Origin: Gammaproteobacteria bacterium
GTDB lineage: Bacteria > Pseudomonadota > Gammaproteobacteria > Arenicellales > UBA868
Assembly: GCA_022451485.1 (NCBI GenBank)
Contig: JAKUQS010000013.1
Span: 1 to 64,000 of the forward strand
Direction of reading: 5' to 3'
DNA length: 64,000 bases
The translations under genes and the position numbers were made by a program. This document shows, in pieces, positions 26,253 through 43,314 of this stretch (the first letter of the stretch is position 1; each line of letters begins with the position of its first letter). The notes under the pieces are model-generated. The model searched no databases, had not been told where the DNA came from, and saw only the letters and a program-made list of their open reading frames with translations.

Positions 26253-27484
26253 ATGTGCCGGCGCTCCGCCATCACCTGCCAGTTTTTGTTTGCATCATGT
26301 TGCCAATACTGATTGATGATCAGACGTGAGCCATCGGCGTTTTTAAATGTCAATCGTGCAAGAAATGTTTCAATTGAGTGGGGATAACCCATCAATTCGA
26401 TGTCAGGAATAGTGGGGTAATTCCAATCTGCCGTTAGCGGCGACAGCGGTCGTTCCTGGCTGGGGTTGCGTAAGGCTTCTTCAAGATGAGCCGCATTCAT
26501 GGCGCGGTAAACCTTGGCGAGTCCCGCCTTATCAATCCTGAGCCAGCTGCTGTGCCACTGTTGCACTGCGGCGATGGCATTCGCCCGGCGCTTTGGCAGA
26601 TCCTTTCGGGTAAGCCAGACAGGCGCATGATCCAGAATAACGGGAATATCGGTGGCGTTACCAGTAATTTCCCGCAGATGCTCGAACTCATGGTTAGACA
26701 GAGTGACGCACCCATCGCTGGCGTAGGGCCCGCGATTCACGTAGCCGGGTTCAGTGCCATGCAGCCAGATTCCATAGCCGGTCCGCTGTGTCATGCGATC
26801 GATCGAATTGGGATAATCGATAGGGAGAGCGCCTGGACCATACCGTGGTGGCAATTCCGCATCGGGAATAAAGGAAGTGATGCGATAGACCCCAACGGGA
26901 GTTTTACGATCACCCTCAATCTGTTTACCGATACCGTTTTTTCCGATGGTTACGTAATAGTTATGCAGGTGAATTAATCGACCTTTCTGGTGACGGTAGA
27001 CGTAGAGCCGGGATTCGGGAAGATCCACATAGATCAGGTAGTGTGTGTCTCGACCGGGCAACAGCAACCGGGAAGGCAGCAGATTGTCATTGGGTTTGGA
27101 TTGACTAGATTGGTAGCGCCAGCGAACCTGCAATTGGTTTTGGAGGTCATCAAGTGCGGCGCGCTCTCGGGTATGAATCGTTCGTTCACCGAGAGGTAGA
27201 CGTCCGCCTTGTGTGGCCAGAATATCCGCATAGAGTAATTTGGCAGTGCGGCTGTGTGGGTAATCAGTCAGCAGTGATTCGACCAGTATCCGAGCTGGAT
27301 CAAGATGACCATTTTGCATCGTTTCAATGACGCGCAACAAAGTGCTTTCATAAGTTGTCGGTTCTGCAGCAGCCAAGCCATGACCCGGTACGCTAACAAA
27401 AACCAACGACCAGAAGCTTATTTTGAGCGCCCTGTATGCCTTGTTTGGTTGAGCCAACTTGATGCGCTCCAATGATTGCTTCAC
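26246..27484 (-). CDS. L,D-transpeptidase (YkuD domain) family protein
   Basis: 412-aa exported protein with a hydrophobic N-terminal segment (KISFWSLVFVSVPGHGLAAAE). The central YkuD domain starts near HYLIYVDLPESRLYVY and has the catalytic motif HGTEPGYVNRG ... SDGCVTLSN, with the nucleophile Cys in DGCV. About 100 further residues resemble the small NTF2-like tail found on some of these enzymes. Expected role: 3-3 peptidoglycan crosslinking or attachment of proteins to peptidoglycan in the periplasm. It overlaps the upstream Sel1-repeat gene by 4 bp, so the two are coupled. Confidence 0.85.
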   Translation of the reverse strand: MKQSLERIKLAQPNKAYRALKISFWSLVFVSVPGHGLAAAEPTTYESTLLRVIETMQNGHLDPARILVESLLTDYPHSRTAKLLYADILATQGGRLPLGERTIHTRERAALDDLQNQLQVRWRYQSSQSKPNDNLLPSRLLLPGRDTHYLIYVDLPESRLYVYRHQKGRLIHLHNYYVTIGKNGIGKQIEGDRKTPVGVYRITSFIPDAELPPRYGPGALPIDYPNSIDRMTQRTGYGIWLHGTEPGYVNRGPYASDGCVTLSNHEFEHLREITGNATDIPVILDHAPVWLTRKDLPKRRANAIAAVQQWHSSWLRIDKAGLAKVYRAMNAAHLEEALRNPSQERPLSPLTADWNYPTIPDIELMGYPHSIETFLARLTFKNADGSRLIINQYWQHDANKNWQVMAERRHIQ

Positions 27485-29844
27485 TGGAGCGGGCTCATCA
27501 TGTCAAATGCCTGCAACGCAATAGCTTCTTTCTTAGCAGGCACATTTTTATCCTTGGCGCCATCGATAGCTTGTCGATAAATTCTTGATGCTCGATGAAT
27601 CAGTAGCGAACCAAGATTTTTTCTCAAGAGTCTGTATCGATCGTCCAGTTCGAGTCCCTGCCGAAGCAATGACTCAGCGCGCTCTAGATTGCCAAGCGAT
27701 GCAAACACGCTCGCGAGATTATTATAGGGTTGCGGAAACTGTGGAAAAGCTTTGATCAGTCCCTCATAGACAGCGATTGCCTCATCGGGTCGGCCTTGAG
27801 TCATCAGTGTGAGCGCGTTATTGAAGTTGTCGATAGCCTCCGCGGACGGTGTGGAGCGTTCCGGCTGTGAATCGGGTTGAGTTAAGGGCTGTTTCGTCGC
27901 GCCCGACTCGTTAGCCTTCGCCACTGATGCAGCCGCTTGTTTCTCGAACAATTGGACTCTATTGATCAGACTGATGTTTTCAGTTTCCAACAGTTCCGCA
28001 CTGAGCCGTTGCTGATCGAGAGTCTGTTCCAGCAGCACCTTTTGAGCGGTGAGTGTCTTTTCCGATGCGATGATTTCCTGTTGACGCTCCTTTAGTCGGT
28101 CAATTTGTGTGGCTAGGGCAGCCGTGCTGGCTTTGCTTTTCTCTAATAGACTCTGCAGATCGTCGTTGCGAGTTTGTAGCATTTTCTTTTTTTCAATCAG
28201 TGAGATGTTGGTTGTTTCTAGTGCTTGATGAGTTTTGGTGAGTGTGGCAATTTGCTCGTTGAGGGTTGCCCTGTCGTTGTCTAACCGAGTCTGAAGTTCG
28301 GTTATGCGAACATGTAATTCATTTTTCTTCTGATTCAGCTCCGTTTTTTCATTGGTTTGTATGGCGAGTTGTTGCGTTAAGCTCTTCAGATTGGTGGTTA
28401 GAACCAATTTCTCATTCAATATTGCTTTGTTGGTATCTTCTAACGCGTTGTAGGCGGTGGTTAAATTCTCTAGTTGCAGATTCAGCGAGACTTCATCTTT
28501 TTCTTCTTGTGCGCGTTGTTGTTGGAGCGTGGAGTCCCGTCTAGACAATGCTTTGTTTTCATTTACCAAAGCCGCGTTAGTTGCGTTGGCCGCTGCTACA
28601 GTCGCGGTTAGTTTTTGATATTGTTTTTCCAGTGTTTGGGTGGCGGCTTTTGCGACCATGAGTTCTTGGCGAAGTTGTGTGCCGCGTGCAGTCGCGGTGG
28701 CTAGTTTCTTTGAAAGCGTTTTGTTTTCCTCGACTAACGTGGTGTTAGTCGCTTTGACTGTTGTTAGGCTGTTGTTCAGTTGCTTGCGTTGTTGTTCGAG
28801 TGCGTGATTTGTGGTTGCTGCAGTGTCTAATTGTTTCCTTAGTTCGACATTCAATGCATTGGCGGTGGTTAGTTTGTTTTGAAGTTGCCGCATCGCTTCA
28901 GGTTCATCTGCAGCAGCTTGTTCTGTTTTTGCTTGAGGTGAGGCGTCGTCAGGTGTTTTTGTCGTGGCCACTGGTTGTTGACTAGTCATTCCAGCCCCAC
29001 TGATCGCAATGGATTCATGACGTGAGGTTTCAAGAGCTGCAATTCCGCCTGCTACAGCATCATCGCCTGGTCGAAGGTGCAGGCCGCCGATTAGCATGCC
29101 ACGTTGCATCAGGCCTAGTGCACTACGCGCACCCAGATAACCATTGGTTTCGGCCATTTGAATCCAAAAAGTGGCTTGAGCTGCATTACGGGCTACGCCG
29201 CGTCCAAAGTAATAAGCTAGCCCCAAGTTGAACTGTGATGCTGGATCGCGTTTCTCTGCTGCCCGATTCCACCAGTAAACTGCCATGGTCGCATCTGCGG
29301 TGGTGCCGATGCCTTCCCAGTACATTCCGCCTAGATTGAACATGGCTGCAGTGTTACCGGCTTTAGCAGCGATCTTGAACCATTGTAGTGACTGCTTGGC
29401 ATTACTTTTAACGCCTTGGCCTTTTAGCAGGACCAGCCCAAGAGCATATTGCGCGTCGGTTGTTCCTCGTTCAGCCCCGCGTTTCCACAGAGTAACTGCT
29501 GTGTCGAATGCCCCCGCCTGGTAAGCGACTAACGCCTGGGCCAGTCGGTGCCCGGACTTAGCGGCCATCTGGAACCAGCGCATGGCTTTGCGCGGGTCGC
29601 GAGCTATTCCATGGCCTTTAAGGTAAGCGACGCCGAGAGCGTACTGAGCATCGGGGTTATCATTTGCGGCGAGTTTTCGCCAGATCTTGATAGCGGCGGG
29701 ATAATTACCGTCGCGGTAGGCTTGCAAAGCAGCATCGGTCTCACCAGAGGCCCACGCAGCTTGTCCTGCCAGAGCGCAGGCCATAAATACTGCAATGAGC
29801 GCGGTGCGTATTACCGACGAATGCTGGCCCGGGCCCTGGACCAT
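27481..29844 (-). CDS. Sel1-repeat / coiled-coil / TPR periplasmic protein
   Basis: About 787 aa from ATG 29844 (start uncertain; the frame is open to 29940 and overlaps the upstream gene). Signal-like helix VIRTALIAVFMACALAGQAAWAS. Then about six Sel1 repeats (DAQYALGVAYLKGHG..., MFNLGGMYWEG..., SQFNLGLAYYFGRG), followed by a coiled coil of roughly 340 residues full of LxxxNxxL heptads (residues about 315-660), and a C-terminal TPR pair (FPQPYNNLASVFASLGNLERAE). I do not recognise a named family. The architecture suggests a periplasmic scaffold spanning some distance, linked by position to the L,D-transpeptidase. Confidence 0.8.
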   Translation of the reverse strand: MVQGPGQHSSVIRTALIAVFMACALAGQAAWASGETDAALQAYRDGNYPAAIKIWRKLAANDNPDAQYALGVAYLKGHGIARDPRKAMRWFQMAAKSGHRLAQALVAYQAGAFDTAVTLWKRGAERGTTDAQYALGLVLLKGQGVKSNAKQSLQWFKIAAKAGNTAAMFNLGGMYWEGIGTTADATMAVYWWNRAAEKRDPASQFNLGLAYYFGRGVARNAAQATFWIQMAETNGYLGARSALGLMQRGMLIGGLHLRPGDDAVAGGIAALETSRHESIAISGAGMTSQQPVATTKTPDDASPQAKTEQAAADEPEAMRQLQNKLTTANALNVELRKQLDTAATTNHALEQQRKQLNNSLTTVKATNTTLVEENKTLSKKLATATARGTQLRQELMVAKAATQTLEKQYQKLTATVAAANATNAALVNENKALSRRDSTLQQQRAQEEKDEVSLNLQLENLTTAYNALEDTNKAILNEKLVLTTNLKSLTQQLAIQTNEKTELNQKKNELHVRITELQTRLDNDRATLNEQIATLTKTHQALETTNISLIEKKKMLQTRNDDLQSLLEKSKASTAALATQIDRLKERQQEIIASEKTLTAQKVLLEQTLDQQRLSAELLETENISLINRVQLFEKQAAASVAKANESGATKQPLTQPDSQPERSTPSAEAIDNFNNALTLMTQGRPDEAIAVYEGLIKAFPQFPQPYNNLASVFASLGNLERAESLLRQGLELDDRYRLLRKNLGSLLIHRASRIYRQAIDGAKDKNVPAKKEAIALQAFDMMSPLQ

Positions 29845-31454
29845 TTCTCTGTCCATTCGGCAGTCACTGTGTCGAGTATGTCCAATTGGTCGCGCCGCAT
29901 CCAGCCGGCGACTGAGTCCAGTGCTCGCAGCCGCGTCCATTCGCCTTGCCGACTGATAATCGATATTTTCTGACCCTTTCGCAACTGGCCGAGCACTCGC
30001 GAATCTGCGCCAGTTGAAGGCATTGAACGGGCGCGAACATTCGGGGTGTTAACGACGGCGATTTTCCCCATGTCTTTAATCAGCTTTCCGTAGACCCATA
30101 CCGCAAGCCCATTTGGGATTTGAACTGACACATATGCGCCACGTTCGCTAAGAACACGAACCGGTGTGCCTCGAGTGATGAAAGCCAATATCGGCGCATT
30201 TGAGCGGGCCGTGCCGAGCACTTCGCTGGAGGGAGACCGAACCAACGCGGCGCGCGGTTTCTGGCCGGTCTTGTCATTATCGAGTTTGTCAGCCACTGGT
30301 GCTGTTTTCGCTGACGGCTGGGGCGATCGTTTACTGTCTTCGATTCTGCTTTGACTGGCGCTGGCCCAGCGCGCCTGCCAGGATTTGGTAGGTGCATCAA
30401 GTACTTCAAAGTCACTGGTCCGCACCCAGGTCTTGATCGAAGTTGCAATCAATTTCCATTTTCCTGCTGTCTCAATCACTCGAACACGTTCGCCAGCCTT
30501 GAGCTTGGTGATCACAGTTGAGCTAACCCCGGTGCCTGGTTTTGAGCGTGCCCGCACTCCGACCCCGCGAATGGTTGCTCGGTCAGCATTACCTTTAACG
30601 TACTTGCCAAACACCCAAGCCAGAGAACCTGCAGGCACGTCTACCTGAGCCCAGTCATCCGTTGCTGAGACGATCTTGATCGGTGTGCCCAGTGTCAGCG
30701 TGTCGAACACAGTGGCAGAATGTTTCGGTGCAATTCGAAGAGAAGCTGTCTCAGCGCTAATGATGCCTGCGGTGTAATGCTGCGCATCGTCAGCAGTGGC
30801 AGTTTCGGTGGCGTGGGTGTTCGCTACATTCGACTTCGAAGGTTCGCTGGCGGTGGTCGTCGAGGCTGTAACTTTGTTTTCAGTCTGTGTCTCGCTGGTG
30901 CCAACCCCGGCCGAGGGGGTGGATCGGGTTGCGATGCGGTTCTGAAGTGCGGGCAGCGCACGTCGGGCGTCCGCATGACCGCTATTGGCCGCCGAGGTAA
31001 GCAGTGCTTGGGCTTTATCGTCGTCCTGTTCTGCCCCTTTGCCTAGGGAGTAGGCGAGGCCAAGGTTGTACTGGGAAGCGGGGTCACCTTTGGCGGCCGC
31101 TTTCTTCCACCACTTTACCGCCGTGGCATAGCTTTTAGGTAGTCCTTTCCCCTCCCATGCAGCCACACCTAGATTAAACATGGCGTCTGGATGACCGTGA
31201 TCAGCCGCTTTCTGAAACCACTCGAGTGCTGTCTCTAGTTCTTTGCGCACGCCCTGGCCTTTGTAATGGATAACGCCGACGGCATACTGCGCGTCACGAT
31301 CGCCTTCCTCAGCGAGGCGCTGCCAGATGGACAGTGCCGCCGTGTAATCTTCGTTTCGATAGGCTTCAGTCGCCATCTTCCACTCGTCGGCTGAAACTGA
31401 GCCAGATACCAGCAGCAGTAGTAAAGCGAGAACCAGGGGGGCAGTTTTGGACAT
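29811..31454 (-). CDS. Sel1-repeat protein with SH3b domains
   Basis: 547-aa exported protein with signal peptide MSKTAPLVLALLLLLVSGSVSA. Residues 23-170 hold about four Sel1 repeats (YAVGVIHYKGQGV, FNLGVAAWEGKG, YNLGLAYSLGKG). After a Ser/Thr-rich linker come two blocks, about 225-345 and 405-535, each with a pair of bacterial SH3-like domains (SLRIAPKHSATVFDTLTLG; GVGVRARSKPGTGVSS; NVRARSMPSTGADSRV). SH3b domains commonly bind peptidoglycan. It is first in a coupled trio with the coiled-coil Sel1 protein and the L,D-transpeptidase, which points to cell-wall organisation (inference). Confidence 0.82.
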   Translation of the reverse strand: MSKTAPLVLALLLLLVSGSVSADEWKMATEAYRNEDYTAALSIWQRLAEEGDRDAQYAVGVIHYKGQGVRKELETALEWFQKAADHGHPDAMFNLGVAAWEGKGLPKSYATAVKWWKKAAAKGDPASQYNLGLAYSLGKGAEQDDDKAQALLTSAANSGHADARRALPALQNRIATRSTPSAGVGTSETQTENKVTASTTTASEPSKSNVANTHATETATADDAQHYTAGIISAETASLRIAPKHSATVFDTLTLGTPIKIVSATDDWAQVDVPAGSLAWVFGKYVKGNADRATIRGVGVRARSKPGTGVSSTVITKLKAGERVRVIETAGKWKLIATSIKTWVRTSDFEVLDAPTKSWQARWASASQSRIEDSKRSPQPSAKTAPVADKLDNDKTGQKPRAALVRSPSSEVLGTARSNAPILAFITRGTPVRVLSERGAYVSVQIPNGLAVWVYGKLIKDMGKIAVVNTPNVRARSMPSTGADSRVLGQLRKGQKISIISRQGEWTRLRALDSVAGWMRRDQLDILDTVTAEWTEKWSRARASIRR

Positions 31455-34874: not shown

Positions 34875-36386
34875 TCACGTCTTAGACTTCAATCGAAAGT
34901 TAATTGGGATTTGATCTGATCGAGTCACAGGCAGCGCGTCTTCGGGGAGAGGTTCATATCTCCAGTGTCGGACAGCATCCATCGCAGCGCTGTCCAGCAG
35001 TTTAAAACCGCTGCTGCGTTTCAGTGTGACCCTGTTGACAGCCCCGGTGGGTTGGATGCTAACAGTCAAGATTACATCGCCTTGCAGGCGTTTTTTGATC
35101 GCAAGACGTGGGTAAACTGGTTTGGGGTTCCCGGCGATGGGCTGCGGTTGATGATTTGATGAGGCATCCCCCGGGGGTGCAGAAGTAGTTACGGTCATTG
35201 TCGCCTGGGTTGTTGAAGTCTGGCGATCACTGGTGGTTACGGTAAGTTGTTTTTCTAAACGCTTGATTTCTGTTCTTAGGTTTTTTTCGATAATTCCTGC
35301 GCGATGTAACTGTGCGGTCGTTTGTTGTTTGTGGTCCCGCAATTGTTTGTTTTCGGTGTGGGCGCGTTTTAGCTGCATACGAGCCGCGTCGCGCTCCGCG
35401 GTTCGATTCAGTTGATCGCGTTTAATTTCGGCACGCAGCCTGTCAGTGAGTTGGGTTGCCGTTGTATGGCGCTCCCTCAGGAGATCGGCTTTCCTTATTG
35501 TTTGTTCAAGCGCATTCTTGTGGCGTACCTGTTCCTGTTTTGAGGCGGCCGATATAGCGGCTACCTGCTCGCGCAGAGTGCTGTTCTGTCTGATCCTTTC
35601 AGCAGCATCATCCACCAGCATCTGTTTCTGGGATTCTAGTTTCTGTGTGGTATTGCGCAGACGTTGGTTGGACGTCTCGAGGATAGCCACTGTTTCTGTT
35701 AGACGGGTATGGTCGAGTTTGATCAGCGTCTCTCGCTCCTTCGCAGCCGCAATTTGATCAGCCTGACTTAGCGTTTGATTCTTCAACTTTTGATTTTCAT
35801 CGACCTGTAGCTTGTGGAGCTGCTGTTGCTGGTCGCTCGTTTGATGGAGGCGTGTGTTCTGTGCAAGTGATGTCTTATATAAGCGAGTCAGCTCCTTATG
35901 TTGGGCTTGAAGAGCTTCCTGGGATTGAGTCTGGCGCGTGATTTCAAGACGTAATCCCAAGTTGTCCCGGGCCATTGTTACCCGCTCCCGCTGCAGGTTT
36001 TCGATCCTTCCCACCTGTCGTTGGCTGTGCTGTTTCATGACGACTATTTCTTGAGTCTGTCTATCTACCGCTTTACGCAGTCGTTTGTAGTGTGATTGCA
36101 TCGCCGACAGCGCGGGTTCTAATGATTTACTGTGGGATGCCGCTGCTGCACGAGTGATTTGGCTACCTATGACCTGGTCTTCGATGGTAATAATGGCCTG
36201 CAGATCAGCGGTGAGTGGAAGAGGAATAGGAACGGACGGACGGAGTTGATCAGCGCCAGAAAACAGCGCGGCATGGAGACCTGTCGAAAGCACCAAACTC
36301 CAGACGATCGGATGTTTTACCGTTCGCCACGTCCCGGGCAAACTTACAGCCGCAGAGTGTGCAGTTCTGGTTGTGTCAGACTTCAT
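34875..36386 (-). CDS. TonB-like energy transducer with a long coiled coil, B12-linked
   Basis: About 503 aa from ATG 36386 (alternatives: ATG 36470 or GTG 36500, the latter at the riboswitch edge). The N-terminus has one membrane anchor (HPIVWSLVLSTGLHAALFSG). Residues of roughly 95-345 form a long Gln/Glu/Arg-rich coiled coil in place of the Pro-rich spacer of ordinary TonB. The last 85 residues are a TonB C-terminal domain (PVYPRLAIKKRLQGDVILTVS ... SSGFKLLDSAAMDAVRHWRYEP). It is preceded by a cobalamin riboswitch and divergent from btuCD, so it probably energises the B12 receptor encoded nearby. ExbB/ExbD are not in the window. Confidence 0.85.
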   Translation of the reverse strand: MKSDTTRTAHSAAVSLPGTWRTVKHPIVWSLVLSTGLHAALFSGADQLRPSVPIPLPLTADLQAIITIEDQVIGSQITRAAAASHSKSLEPALSAMQSHYKRLRKAVDRQTQEIVVMKQHSQRQVGRIENLQRERVTMARDNLGLRLEITRQTQSQEALQAQHKELTRLYKTSLAQNTRLHQTSDQQQQLHKLQVDENQKLKNQTLSQADQIAAAKERETLIKLDHTRLTETVAILETSNQRLRNTTQKLESQKQMLVDDAAERIRQNSTLREQVAAISAASKQEQVRHKNALEQTIRKADLLRERHTTATQLTDRLRAEIKRDQLNRTAERDAARMQLKRAHTENKQLRDHKQQTTAQLHRAGIIEKNLRTEIKRLEKQLTVTTSDRQTSTTQATMTVTTSAPPGDASSNHQPQPIAGNPKPVYPRLAIKKRLQGDVILTVSIQPTGAVNRVTLKRSSGFKLLDSAAMDAVRHWRYEPLPEDALPVTRSDQIPINFRLKSKT

Positions 36387-36500
36387 CCCACCAACGTGCG
36401 TTTCATATCGGAACCAGTCATTGTTTCGACGATACGCCGCCAGATGGGTTTTGACCCACACCCCGGACATGTCCCGGCCCCGGGTGAGCGACGCGGGCAC

Positions 36501-36661
36501 TGGCAGGTCTCCTGGCTTGCGGATCGGGGCGGACTGATTGGCCTTCCCGGCGTGACGCCAGTGGTTATCATAATCTTCCGCTAGCCGCTTACAGTTGCGG
36601 GTACAGCCCGGACTACCGTCAGTGTGGACGTTTCCGGTTCCCTATTAACCCCAGTTGGGGG
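36501..36661 (-). ncRNA. Cobalamin riboswitch upstream of the tonB-like gene
   Basis: Minus-strand 5' leader. In order: AATAGGGAACC (near 36647), GGCTGTACCCGCAACTGTAAGCGG (core near 36588-36607), the B12 box CCACTGGCG (36556-36564), CGGGAAGGC (36541-36549) and the terminal GCCAGGAGACCTGCC (36502-36516). This order and spacing are those of the AdoCbl-type element. A GC-rich inverted repeat downstream (36459-36486) contains the ATG at 36470 and could be part of the expression platform. Adenosylcobalamin binding should lower expression of the downstream gene. Confidence 0.9.
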
Positions 36662-36677
36662 CCATTGCCTAGGGTTT

Positions 36678-36706
36678 AGTAAAAGCGAAAAGGTAGCAGA
36701 ATTCAA
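36678..36706 (-). promoter_or_regulatory. Putative promoter of the tonB-like riboswitch leader
   Basis: Minus strand: TTGAAT (36701-36706), 17-bp spacer, TTTACT (36678-36683), placed so that transcription would start just before the riboswitch. Confidence 0.5.
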
Positions 36707-36794: not shown

Positions 36795-37778
36795 ATGCGT
36801 ACTCGACGTGCCTATTTCTTGCCGTTGCTTTTCTTGGGGACCCTGGTAGCAGCCGGATTCTCTCTTGCAATCGGCACCATCGAGGTGGATTGGCAGCAGG
36901 TCTATCAAGGGATTGTAGCGGGACGGCCGAGCCTACACTATGAAGTTGTCATGGGAATTCGTTTACCAAGAGCGTTGAATGCTTTTCTAGTCGGTGGAAT
37001 GCTTGCGGTGGCTGGAGCGCTGATGCAGGTTCTTTTGCGAAATCCTTTGGCTGACCCATATGTGTTGGGCGTGTCTGGCGGCGCGTCAGTCGGGGCGCTT
37101 CTCGCCCTCACGTGGGGTTGGGCCGAGGCTGGGGTATCTGGAGCAGCCGCTGTTGGTGCGTTGTTTTCACTGTTTATCGTATTCGGTTTAGCGCGTGGTG
37201 CGGGTCACTGGTCTTCAACTCGGTTGCTTCTGACCGGAGTGGTGATGGCGGCGGGATGGGGTGCGATGGTGAGTTTTTTGCTGGCAATCAGCCCAGAAGC
37301 ACACCTTCGCGGTATGTTGTTCTGGTTAATGGGTGATTTGACCGAACGTTTGCCAGGTGGTTTTCGAGTGGGTTTGTTGGCACTCGGCTTGGGCGTTAGT
37401 GTTTATGTTGCCAGAAGTCTTAATTTGTTAGCGACCGGTGAGCAGCGCGCGGCGAGTCTGGGCGTTAATACCGTGTCATTGCGCTTGATCCTCTACTTCA
37501 CGGCGGGTGTGCTCACGGCGAGTGCCGTGACATTGGCGGGGGCGATCGGTTTTGTGGGTTTGGTGGTGCCCCATATCGTTCGGCTCGTGATCGGTGCGGA
37601 TCATCGTTTGGTTGTTCCTGGCTCTTTGCTCGCTGGCGGTGCATTGCTCATCGTCTCAGAGTTGGTTGCGAGAACTATCATGGCTCCCAATGAATTGCCT
37701 GTTGGGATAGTGACTGCGTTTATCGGCGTTCCTACCTTTCTGTTTTTGTTACGACGTAGTGCAACCTCGCGATCATGA
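36795..37778 (+). CDS. btuC: Cobalamin ABC transporter permease (BtuC/FecCD family)
   Basis: 327-aa permease with about ten hydrophobic helices. Family landmarks: [47 protein letters not shown] and, near the C-terminus, GAIGFVGLVVPHIVRLVIG. BtuC and siderophore permeases share this family; B12 is assigned because btuB, btuF, cobT and cobS surround it. It overlaps btuD by 4 bp (ATGA). A lone TATACT (36750-36755) is the only promoter-like element seen upstream, and no riboswitch faces this gene. Confidence 0.88.
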   Translation: MRTRRAYFLPLLFLGTLVAAGFSLAIGTIEVDWQQVYQGIVAGRPSLHYEVVMGIRLPRALNAFLVGGMLAVAGALMQVLLRNPLADPYVLGVSGGASVGALLALTWGWAEAGVSGAAAVGALFSLFIVFGLARGAGHWSSTRLLLTGVVMAAGWGAMVSFLLAISPEAHLRGMLFWLMGDLTERLPGGFRVGLLALGLGVSVYVARSLNLLATGEQRAASLGVNTVSLRLILYFTAGVLTASAVTLAGAIGFVGLVVPHIVRLVIGADHRLVVPGSLLAGGALLIVSELVARTIMAPNELPVGIVTAFIGVPTFLFLLRRSATSRS

Positions 37779-38542
37779 CGCAATTAAGTACACATGATCT
37801 GCGCATTGAGATCGGAGATGTAGTTGTTTGCCGCGATTTGTGCACGACATTTTTGCCGGGGCAGGTATGGACGATTTTGGGCCCCAACGGAGTAGGCAAA
37901 TCGACTCTGCTCAGAACTTTGGCAGGCCTTTATCAACCCATTGCGGGTCAAGTGTCTTTTGATGGGCAGCCGCTTGTTGATATACCGCGACGCAAAAGGG
38001 CGCGGCAGATTGGAATCTTATTCCAGGATCACGCCGATGTATTTCCTTTGACGGTGATGGAAACAGTACTAACCGGAAGGCATCCGTGGTGTTCCCCGTT
38101 GCAGGGAGAAAGCGCCCTGGATCTGGAGCGAGTAGATCAAGTACTTGGCCAAGTGGGGCTCAATGGTTTCCAGGACAGGAATCTTTTTTCCTTGTCAGGT
38201 GGGGAGCGTCGGCGAGTTGATCTGGCGGCATTGGCTGTCCAGGATTCGGCCGTAGTCTTATTGGATGAGCCCAGTAATCACCTCGATCCCCGTCATCAGG
38301 TCACATTGCTCGGAGGCATGATAGATAAATGGCGTCGTGCGCGTCGCACGGTGGTCATGGTGTTGCATGATATTAATTTAGCCGTGAGGTTCAGTGACTA
38401 TCTGGTCTTTCTCTACGGTGATGGCAAGGCATCCCATGGTTTAGTAGCAGAAATGGCTACTGAGGGTCATTTTTCAAGACTCTACGATCAGCCGATGGGC
38501 CGTTATCAAGCGAACGATCGTGATCTCTTTTTCCCGCTTTAG
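37775..38542 (+). CDS. btuD: Cobalamin ABC transporter ATP-binding protein
   Basis: 255-aa ATPase: Walker A GPNGVGKST, Q-loop LFQDHADVFPLTV, signature LSGGERRRVDLAAL, Walker B VVLLDEPSNHLDP, H-loop VVMVLHDINLAV. It pairs with BtuC through the ATGA overlap. The substrate assignment rests on the B12 gene neighbourhood. Confidence 0.88.
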   Translation: MTQLSTHDLRIEIGDVVVCRDLCTTFLPGQVWTILGPNGVGKSTLLRTLAGLYQPIAGQVSFDGQPLVDIPRRKRARQIGILFQDHADVFPLTVMETVLTGRHPWCSPLQGESALDLERVDQVLGQVGLNGFQDRNLFSLSGGERRRVDLAALAVQDSAVVLLDEPSNHLDPRHQVTLLGGMIDKWRRARRTVVMVLHDINLAVRFSDYLVFLYGDGKASHGLVAEMATEGHFSRLYDQPMGRYQANDRDLFFPL

Positions 38543-38658
38543 TTGACGCGCTGATAAACAGTGTTTCCTAACCCCAGGGAATTAGGGTTGACAGTCACTG
38601 AGGTGACGGCGTAACGTCGAAATTCTCGATGTGGGTACCGTGTGACGTCTCAGCCGCA

Positions 38659-38831
38659 CGGTGAAACGGGAAGCCGGTGCGCTAAAGACGTCGATGTCTG
38701 CAAGGCCGGCACTGCCCCCGCAACGGTAAGTGGTACGGGTTCAGCATATTGCCACTGCGGCACTGGCCGTGGGAAGGCGCTGAATTCTTGGCCAGCTACG
38801 CGGCCTGACCACGAGTCCGGAAACCGGTCCA
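38659..38831 (+). ncRNA. Cobalamin riboswitch upstream of btuB
   Basis: Full AdoCbl-type element in the leader between btuD and btuB: CGGTGAAACGGGAAGCCGGTG (opening strand), GGCACTGCCCCCGCAAC (about 38708-38724), the B12 box GCCACTG (38751-38757), GGGAAGGC (38771-38778) and GAGTCCGGAAACCGG (38813-38827). It lies about 115 nt upstream of the btuB start, leaving room for the expression platform described separately. Together with flanking sequence it accounts for the 402-bp gap between btuD and btuB. Confidence 0.95.
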
Positions 38832-38882
38832 TATCGAAACCATTTAGTTGCCGCGGTGGGCGGTGGCTGGGGTTTTCGTTAG

Positions 38883-40910: not shown

Positions 40911-41984
40911 TTGAAAGCCTGGGATAAGTTTCGTGTTCCGGCTGCTGTGCCAAGCGATAAGTTTCGCAAGAGAGCCATAAAGAGGCAGGCCAGTTTGACC
41001 AAACCGTTAGGGGCGTTGGGTCGGGTTGAAAATTTAGCGGTTCAGTTGGCAGCCCTGCAGTGCACGGAGACTCCGCAGGCGCGGCCATGCTGTATTAGCA
41101 TTTTTGCTGGTGACCACGGCGTTGCGGTCGAAGATGTGTCGGCGTATCCACAGTCGGTAACAGCCCAGATGGTGCACAACGTTGCTGTCGGCGGAGCGGC
41201 AATCAGCGTGTTAGCAGACAGGCTCGGGTTGACGTTGGAAGTTATCAATCTGGGGACAGTTGGACACCATGATAGCCATCCGCGTATTGTTTATTCGCCT
41301 ATTGCCTCGAGCACAGCCAACTGCTTAAAGCACGCGGCGATGACTAAGTCGGAATTATCTCAAGCCCTCGAGGTGGGACGAAAGGCGGCTGTTCGTGCAC
41401 GCGACACAGGAATGTCATTATTCATCGGTGGTGAACTGGGGATAGGCAATACCACTGTCGCTTCGGCTATGGGTAGTGCTTTAACTGGTCTTTCCCCCAC
41501 CCAAATGGTCGGCCCCGGCACTGGTTTGGATGCTGAAGGTGTCACGGCCAAGGTTGGCGTTGTGAGCGCCATATTGTGTCGGCATGGCCATGCGATTGAT
41601 GACCCAATGGAACTGACACGCCGTCTCGGAGGTTTTGAAATAGCAGCACTGGTTGCCGCATTCATTAGCTGCAGCCAGTTTGGAATCCCAATTTTGGTTG
41701 ACGGATTTATTTCGACAGTCGCTGCCTGCGTCGCGGCTCGAATATGTTTTGGGTCGACTGCTTGGATGATTCATTCTCATTCTTCGGCAGAGCCAGGCCA
41801 CAAGCATCTTCTGAAGGCTCTGGGGGCCGAACCACTGTTTTCGCTGTCTTTACGACTTGGGGAAGGGAGCGGGGCTGCCCTTGCGTGGCCATTGATGGAT
41901 CTCGCCTGTGCCTTACACAACGAAATGGCAACATTTGAGTCAGCCGGTGTATCCGGCAGCTCACTCGAGTCAACTTCCGTATGA
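40911..41984 (+). CDS. cobT: Nicotinate-nucleotide-dimethylbenzimidazole phosphoribosyltransferase
   Basis: 357-aa enzyme making alpha-ribazole phosphate for the lower ligand of B12. Motifs: SLTKPLGALGRVE, FAGDHGVAVEDVSAYP, GELGIGNTTVASA, GPGTGLDAEGV, and the catalytic glutamate region LRLGEGSGAALAWPL. It starts with TTG at 40911; AGGAA stands a suitable distance upstream and there is no nearby ATG. Its last codons overlap cobS by 4 bp. Confidence 0.95.
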   Translation: MKAWDKFRVPAAVPSDKFRKRAIKRQASLTKPLGALGRVENLAVQLAALQCTETPQARPCCISIFAGDHGVAVEDVSAYPQSVTAQMVHNVAVGGAAISVLADRLGLTLEVINLGTVGHHDSHPRIVYSPIASSTANCLKHAAMTKSELSQALEVGRKAAVRARDTGMSLFIGGELGIGNTTVASAMGSALTGLSPTQMVGPGTGLDAEGVTAKVGVVSAILCRHGHAIDDPMELTRRLGGFEIAALVAAFISCSQFGIPILVDGFISTVAACVAARICFGSTAWMIHSHSSAEPGHKHLLKALGAEPLFSLSLRLGEGSGAALAWPLMDLACALHNEMATFESAGVSGSSLESTSV

Positions 41985-42763
41985 CTACCGACGTCCATAG
42001 TCAATTACTTCGTGAAGTACGGCGTCTCAGGATTGCGTTGATGTATTTCACTCGTATACCCGTGGGAGGTCTATCGGTATGGACTCCTAGCGAATTGAAT
42101 AACGCGATGCGTTATTTCCCATGGGTTGGGATTTTGGTAGGGCTTGCTTGTTCAGGAATTTTCCTGCTGTTGATTCCTTGGTTACCAGTGCAGGCCGTGA
42201 TCGTCCTTGTATTAGTGTCCCATTGCCTGCTGACGGGGTGTTTCCACGAAGACGGTTTAGCTGATGTGTGTGATGGATTTGGGGGCGCATTTGATCGAAG
42301 CGAGAAGATGCAGATTATGAAAGATTCCCGAGTGGGAACTTATGGGGTAGTGGGGTTGTGGTCAGTCTTGATGCTTAAGTTTGCCTTACTGAGCGCACTG
42401 CCGATTGCGATGATTCCACCGCTACTGTTATTGGCGCACGGGTTATCCCGGCTTGTCCCGCTTTCGGTGATGTGTCTGCTTTCTTACGTAGGAGATCCAG
42501 AAGAAAGTCGTGTTAAGCCGGTAGCTGAATCGATTACCTCGATTGATTTGTCTGTTGCGGGATTGGTTGTAGTGCCTTTGTTATGGTTCTGGCCAATAGC
42601 AACATTGGTTATGCTGTTTACTTTATTACTATTGATTATAGTTTTGTGTCAGTTAGCGAATCGTCAGATCGGTGGTTATACCGGTGATTACCTAGGGTTT
42701 TCGCAACAGATCAGTGAGGTTGTGGTCTATATAGTCGGAGTAAGCTTATGGATATCTGCCTAA
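41981..42763 (+). CDS. cobS: Adenosylcobinamide-GDP ribazoletransferase (cobalamin synthase)
   Basis: 260-aa integral membrane enzyme joining alpha-ribazole (phosphate) to adenosylcobinamide-GDP. The signature HEDGLADVCDGFGGAFDRSEKMQIMKDSRVGTYG is unmistakable, with hydrophobic helices on either side. It overlaps cobT by 4 bp and the phosphatase gene by 16 bp. No cobU/cobP (cobinamide activation) gene is in the window, so that step must be encoded elsewhere or be absent. Confidence 0.95.
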   Translation: MTTDVHSQLLREVRRLRIALMYFTRIPVGGLSVWTPSELNNAMRYFPWVGILVGLACSGIFLLLIPWLPVQAVIVLVLVSHCLLTGCFHEDGLADVCDGFGGAFDRSEKMQIMKDSRVGTYGVVGLWSVLMLKFALLSALPIAMIPPLLLLAHGLSRLVPLSVMCLLSYVGDPEESRVKPVAESITSIDLSVAGLVVVPLLWFWPIATLVMLFTLLLLIIVLCQLANRQIGGYTGDYLGFSQQISEVVVYIVGVSLWISA

Positions 42764-43314
42764 TTCGTCATACTCGACCTCAGGTGGAGAAGGGGGTTTG
42801 TTATGGCCGGCTTGACCTTGATGTCGCAGAGACTTTTGAGCAAGAAGCCGTGATATCCGCGAATTTATTACCTCACAGTTTCGACTATACCTACTCCAGT
42901 CCATTGCGACGTTGTCGCAAATTAGCGAATTTTTTCGGTTCCAACTATGTGTTGGATGATCGTCTACAGGAAGTTGATTTTGGGGCTTGGGAAGGTCGAC
43001 TGTGGACGGACATCGGTGAATCTGCTTTGGACATGTGGATGGCCAATATTGAATCGTTTATTTTCCCAGGCGGCGAAGCCTTCGCCCAATTTCAGGTCCG
43101 GGTTGAGCAATTTCTCGCTCAGCTTCCTGTTGGTCGAGTGCTGCTCATTACCCACGCTGGCGTCATAAAAATAGCTTACGGCATCTTGGCTAACAAGTCG
43201 CTGAGCGAGTCAGTCAGTTTTTCGGTTGACTATGGACAATGCCTTCGCGTTGTAGATGGTCTCCCCGAACTACTAACGACACCGAAGCAAACATTGTTGT
43301 CTCGGTCAGAATGA
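42748..43314 (+). CDS. cobC: Histidine phosphatase, probable alpha-ribazole phosphatase
   Basis: 188-aa phosphoglycerate-mutase-like enzyme. The catalytic histidine motif is LIRHTRP near residue 8, followed by CYGRLD, the conserved DFGAWEGRLW segment, and the second histidine in LLITHAGVIK. Placed after cobT and cobS with overlapping ends, it probably dephosphorylates alpha-ribazole-5'-phosphate or cobalamin-5'-phosphate. The motif is RHT rather than the commonest RHG, as in many CobC proteins. Confidence 0.88.
   Translation: MDICLIRHTRPQVEKGVCYGRLDLDVAETFEQEAVISANLLPHSFDYTYSSPLRRCRKLANFFGSNYVLDDRLQEVDFGAWEGRLWTDIGESALDMWMANIESFIFPGGEAFAQFQVRVEQFLAQLPVGRVLLITHAGVIKIAYGILANKSLSESVSFSVDYGQCLRVVDGLPELLTTPKQTLLSRSE

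Follow-up and report, generated by a model that had tools for sequence, protein, structure and literature searches.

TonB of E. coli and other Proteobacteria (PF03544, TIGR01352) has an S-x3-H pair in the membrane anchor, a strand region after the anchor and a C-terminal domain, with BtuB as an expected partner, and all this it has in common with the protein described here, where the strand region is a candidate. Its domain II, however, is a Pro-rich segment of about 100–130 residues, whereas here domain II is helical and almost free of proline, and the gene is preceded by a cobalamin riboswitch. In a published survey of TonB proteins, domain II has a median length of 113 residues and a maximum of 245, and that of TolA spans 110–335 residues (PMC12204202). 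Helix-dominant TonBs, e.g. that of A. avenae, are already described in the survey, thus a Pro-rich spacer is not a defining trait; coiled coils and riboswitches do not come up in its main text. A natural helical domain II is shared by these proteins and the one considered here, and what stands out is the length of the rod, beyond the longest TonB spacer of the survey: domain II has 379 residues here and 177–465 in the family.

TolA (TIGR02794) is similar in that a long helical domain II carries force to the outer membrane, but its C-terminal domain, partner and locus all differ. HasB of Serratia (PMC3602595) is a receptor-specific paralogue and thus a TonB tied to one uptake system; HasB coexists with a general TonB (PMC9008036), whereas here a single receptor was detected and tonB itself is under a B12 riboswitch. 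Riboswitch control of B12 uptake genes is the feature shared with the described cobalamin riboswitch regulons (PMC3766115), and tonB goes unmentioned in the main text of that study. How TonB transfers force across the periplasm, by pull or by rotation, through a stiff or a flexible link, in one copy or more, is unsettled.

The window, that is, the whole stretch of 64,000 nucleotides analysed here, comes from a gammaproteobacterium of the order Arenicellales. The tonB gene and its leader contain the following features.

36485..36681, minus strand: cobalamin riboswitch aptamer (RF00174) in the tonB leader; 99.8 bits against a gathering threshold of 31.5, E=9.3e-24, full model 1–189
36387..36484, minus strand: leader after the aptamer, a putative expression platform; pairing is possible between CCCAUC and a Shine-Dalgarno-like GGUGGG before the ATG
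34875..36386, minus strand: tonB coding sequence, 503 aa; PF03544 E=5.5e-22; dN/dS 0.35 against the congener G001
36252..36308, minus strand: membrane anchor, residues ~27–45, with S34/H38; hydrophobicity 1.49 over 19 residues
36180..36206, minus strand: candidate D-box/motor-box strand, residues 61–69, DLQAIITIE; aligns with LQATLIQ and LDVQIIE of relatives
35262..36110, minus strand: helical rod, residues 93–375, predicted coiled coil; AF2 helix, dominant hydrophobic period 3.51, heptad z=4.6, no proline
34878..35129, minus strand: TonB C-terminal domain, residues 420–503; AF2 fold with pLDDT mostly 82–88, dN/dS 0.15

The tonB start is most likely the ATG at 36386 (MKSDT...). An alternative GTG at 36500 was rejected, as it falls within the aptamer and there is little sign of coding upstream of the ATG: in the 28 codons 5' of it synonymous divergence is low, with pS 0.15 compared to 0.27–0.46 in the coding sequence, and dN/dS is 0.68. 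By these values the 28 codons look more like conserved leader RNA than like coding sequence. The riboswitch ends 99 nt before the ATG, on the same strand, and the leader is nearly identical in four congeners. The CCCAUC:GGUGGG helix forms in the minimum free energy fold of the window leader, and in that of G001 it is shorter, with fold energy not clearly better than in shuffled sequences. Since the scan of the leader region yielded no minus-strand terminator-like site, and GGUGGG is pairable with CCCAUC, the weak fold suggests that the tonB riboswitch probably acts at translation.

The C-terminus scores 78.5 bits with PF03544 (TonB_C, cut-off 24.6), and the protein scores 64.7 bits with TIGR01352 (cut-off 27.1). 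As modelled, the C-terminal domain has a normal TonB fold. The anchor sequence is IVWSLVLSTGLHAALFSGA, and its S-x3-H pair is unchanged in 16–17 members of the family alignment, although of the full SHLS motif neither the L nor the second S is clear. Compared with the published D-box/motor-box pattern (PMC10907165), the hydrophobic/hydrophilic alternation is exact in some relatives but only partial in the window protein. The sequence-only reading had described an anchor, a coiled coil of about 250 residues and a TonB C-terminal domain behind a cobalamin riboswitch leader; all four are borne out, the predicted coiled coil being somewhat longer than proposed.

In the better AF2 model, residues 93–375 form one uninterrupted helix of 283 residues with pLDDT about 90 over most of it, while the shallower one has two helices, 90–203 and 210–383, with a break at 204–209; both are monomer models, built from 16 and 4 sequences, respectively, with pTM 0.25. 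Apart from lacking proline, the rod contains only three glycines. In a register-tracking heptad test against shuffled sequences its z-score of 4.6 compares with 6.3–10 in seven relatives; a simpler sliding-window measure is weaker for the window rod (z about 2), and most relatives score above it in both tests. Used as a profile, the rod matches myosin, kinesin, tropomyosin and Smc. The claim that a rod stands in place of a Pro-rich spacer holds as well: proline makes up 2.9% of domain II, as against medians of 25% proline and 130 residues obtained by the same measurement for 28 TonBs across the class, these being the best C-terminal-domain matches to the family, not a random sample, with a few trimmed frames imperfect.

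The helix, if straight, would be about 42 nm long (0.15 nm per residue). A typical periplasm is 20–25 nm wide, so that the rod would fit only when tilted, bent, folded back or coiled. Given the hydrophobic heptads, it is plausible that it pairs with itself, probably as a dimer or by fold-back. A ruler-like role, with the rod precisely spanning the periplasm, is argued against by the variation of domain II length in the family (177–465 residues).

In the window, a Sel1-repeat/coiled-coil protein at 27481–29940 was tried as a relative of the rod, and a common origin was discarded, the similarity being not significant (E=0.22). This gene belongs to an adjoining pair on the minus strand (27481–31454, overlap 130 bp). 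Both products have Sel1 repeats, combined in the 819-aa one with TPR and a long coiled coil and in the 547-aa one with SH3 domains, and neither is linked by sequence to the TonB rod.

Around tonB lie the following genes and a second riboswitch.

36795..37778, plus strand: btuC-like permease, divergent from tonB; FecCD PF01032, top NCBIfam match BtuC, under cut-off
37775..38542, plus strand: btuD-like ABC ATPase; ABC_tran PF00005, NCBIfam equivalog cut-offs not reached
38616..38846, plus strand: second cobalamin riboswitch, upstream of btuB; RF00174, 107.3 bits
38945..40759, plus strand: btuB, TonB box ETVIVTATR; TIGR01779 (TonB-B12) E=1.9e-163, 545 of 600 bits, under cut-off
40911..43314, plus strand: cobT, cobS and cobC-like genes (lower-ligand/cobinamide salvage); cut-offs exceeded for TIGR03160 and TIGR00317 and narrowly missed for TIGR03162
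43328..44242, minus strand: btuF-like periplasmic binding protein; PF01497, top NCBIfam match BtuF, under cut-off

For some of these genes the name is that of the best family match, with a score below the NCBI equivalog cut-off. The btuB gene lies 2.3 kb from tonB, and the riboswitches of these two genes are the only cobalamin riboswitches in the genome. The btuC-btuD pair has none of its own in this genome. Apparently, judging by riboswitch positions, the outer-membrane step of B12 uptake is regulated and the inner-membrane step is not.

In the genome the Plug and the TonB-dependent barrel domain have one match each, and both matches lie in BtuB. With 92.7% completeness and 5.95% contamination, the assembly may lack a further receptor or TonB or contain a foreign one. 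A Plug match is present in 25 of the 33 family genomes, exactly one in 21 of these 25; the genomes are metagenome assemblies with completeness of 60–95%, so that receptors could be missing. Cobalamin riboswitches were found in 27 family genomes, and there are exactly two in each. At all 20 other loci inspected in this GTDB family, a riboswitch precedes tonB on the same strand; its distance to the estimated start is 86–157 nt in 19 of them, the start in the remaining one being hidden by Ns. The btuB gene is divergent from tonB at every inspected family locus with both genes on one contig. In one genome (G009) the TonB and the riboswitch are present and a receptor is absent; the contig with tonB stops just past btuD, where the family layout puts btuB, and the absence is probably an assembly gap.

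From this arrangement, the window TonB almost certainly acts on BtuB. More broadly, we consider it quite probable that the Ton system in this family serves essentially cobalamin, with a riboswitch-controlled, rod-spaced TonB energising BtuB. The suggestion that this TonB serves only the nearby BtuB survives insofar as BtuB is the sole receptor detected, but "dedicated" holds chiefly for lack of other TonB-dependent receptors in the genome. A sole TonB serving all receptors had been named as evidence against such dedication; this is largely the situation here, and the dedication to B12 stands since "all receptors" amounts to one.

The main competing explanation is that this is an ordinary general-purpose TonB, its B12 appearance reflecting small, nutrient-specialised genomes and its helical spacer being a product of neutral drift without special function. 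The single receptor fits it, as does the rod, which diverges faster than the C-terminal domain (64% against 85% identity) and is highly variable in length; further, helical and disordered domains II are interchangeable to a degree (PMC10666116, PMC12204202). However, riboswitch control is retained at every family locus inspected, heptads are preserved in the rods across the family, and dN/dS of 0.39 against G001, although higher than in the C-terminal domain, indicates purifying selection on the rod. Hence we regard this explanation as unlikely.

Far less probable still is that BtuB is energised by another protein and the window TonB has a different role. Other TonB_C proteins of the genome are TolA and a TonB-like protein on contig C53 beside yqgE/yqgF, a neighbourhood that presumably recalls Pseudomonas TonB3. 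Thus a second candidate does exist, but nothing seen at its locus points to B12; the window tonB, by contrast, is close to and divergent from btuB, and the family has matching riboswitches on both genes.

The notion that the window protein is a TolA-like envelope tether, prompted by the long helical domain II, a classic TolA trait, and by a weak match to a part of tolA_full (E=0.01, 15.1 bits against a cut-off of 59.45), has next to no probability and was rejected, as the genome encodes its TolA (TIGR02794 above cut-off) elsewhere, in a tolQRAB locus, the window gene lies in a riboswitch and BtuB neighbourhood, and a Foldseek search with the C-terminal domain model yields TonB domains first, including 2gsk (the E. 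coli BtuB:TonB complex), and TolA far lower. The TolA of this genome (G000 contig C69; L003, L082) has 203 residues, with about 94 between the anchor and the C-terminal domain, and a helical link of 46 residues, 67% of which are E, K or R. The usual spacer roles are therefore reversed in this genome, with a short TolA link and a long TonB rod.

For the B12-serving Ton system the following course of events may be proposed. When adenosylcobalamin is plentiful, the riboswitch would block translation of tonB through pairing of GGUGGG with CCCAUC; under scarcity, co-repression would be lifted and TonB and BtuB produced together. The S/H anchor and the strand after it would engage an ExbBD-type motor, either the exbB-exbD pair of contig C46 or TolQR: the genome has a stand-alone exbB/exbD-like pair on C46 and tolQR on C69, with the NCBIfam cut-offs for ExbB and ExbD unreached. 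The rod would then transmit force, and the C-terminal domain would bind the TonB box of BtuB. The rod may be viewed as a stiff link replacing the polyproline spacer, like the TolA helix, but a coiled coil with hydrophobic heptads and not a charged single helix; it would need a fold-back, tilt or bend to fit the periplasm. That a helical spacer can transmit force finds support in E. coli TonB chimeras with the helical domain II of TolA, which are functional (PMC10666116).

A more specific version, in which the rod is a parallel coiled coil and TonB an obligate dimer, its ~40-nm shaft linking BtuB to one ExbBD motor or to two, is doubtful. If true, it would provide, in a one-vitamin Ton system, a geometry of force transmission other than that of the polyproline model with one TonB per motor. 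In any case the family is a natural experiment, usually with one receptor, one TonB and one vitamin, in which the helical spacer differs more than twofold in length with the same type of receptor. Two TonBs of the same genus, those of G012 (L053) and G008 (L057), have spacers of 177 and 465 residues, about 290 apart, in the same btuB neighbourhood.

The view of this TonB as an unusual design is correct for the length of its rod and its B12 riboswitch, but with helical TonB spacers already published (PMC12204202) and TolA-helix chimeras of E. coli TonB functional (PMC10666116), a rod by itself is no novelty. In the open-licence literature we found no report of a cobalamin riboswitch controlling tonB, though earlier reports may exist. 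The energy transducer itself, and not the receptor alone, can come under the riboswitch of a vitamin.

The riboswitch-TonB pair is kept at all family loci inspected, and it is also present without the rod. Two other families of the same order, f11 (G055 and, less surely, G042) and f12 (G043), have riboswitch-preceded TonBs whose long spacers are acidic or rich in Pro/Ala. These spacers are apparently disordered, and no heptad signal was found in those of f11. Hence the rod and the riboswitch are separable. Among 369 genomes of the class, the family profile matched through the rod in the window genome only; other matches covered the C-terminal domain, a few with some flanking sequence. No cobalamin riboswitch was found within flanks of about 1.5 kb of the 29 closest non-family TonB C-terminal domains. 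The 583-aa TonB_C proteins of the f10 genomes were set aside, having a hydrophobic segment around residue 180 and a dissimilar middle part. Thus, as far as these genomes indicate, several families of the order have tonB under B12 control, and only in this one has the rod been seen so far.

Four loci of the wider comparison (L063–L066, in G042, G050, G055 and G060) encode TonBs with spacers of about 500–700 residues, mostly acidic and apparently disordered, which exceed the rod TonBs in length; some of them are preceded by a cobalamin riboswitch. At one more locus (L072, 2891–5463), a cobalamin riboswitch is followed by a TonB with a Pro/Ala-rich spacer and then by a gene that, by its translation, probably encodes a cobalamin adenosyltransferase.
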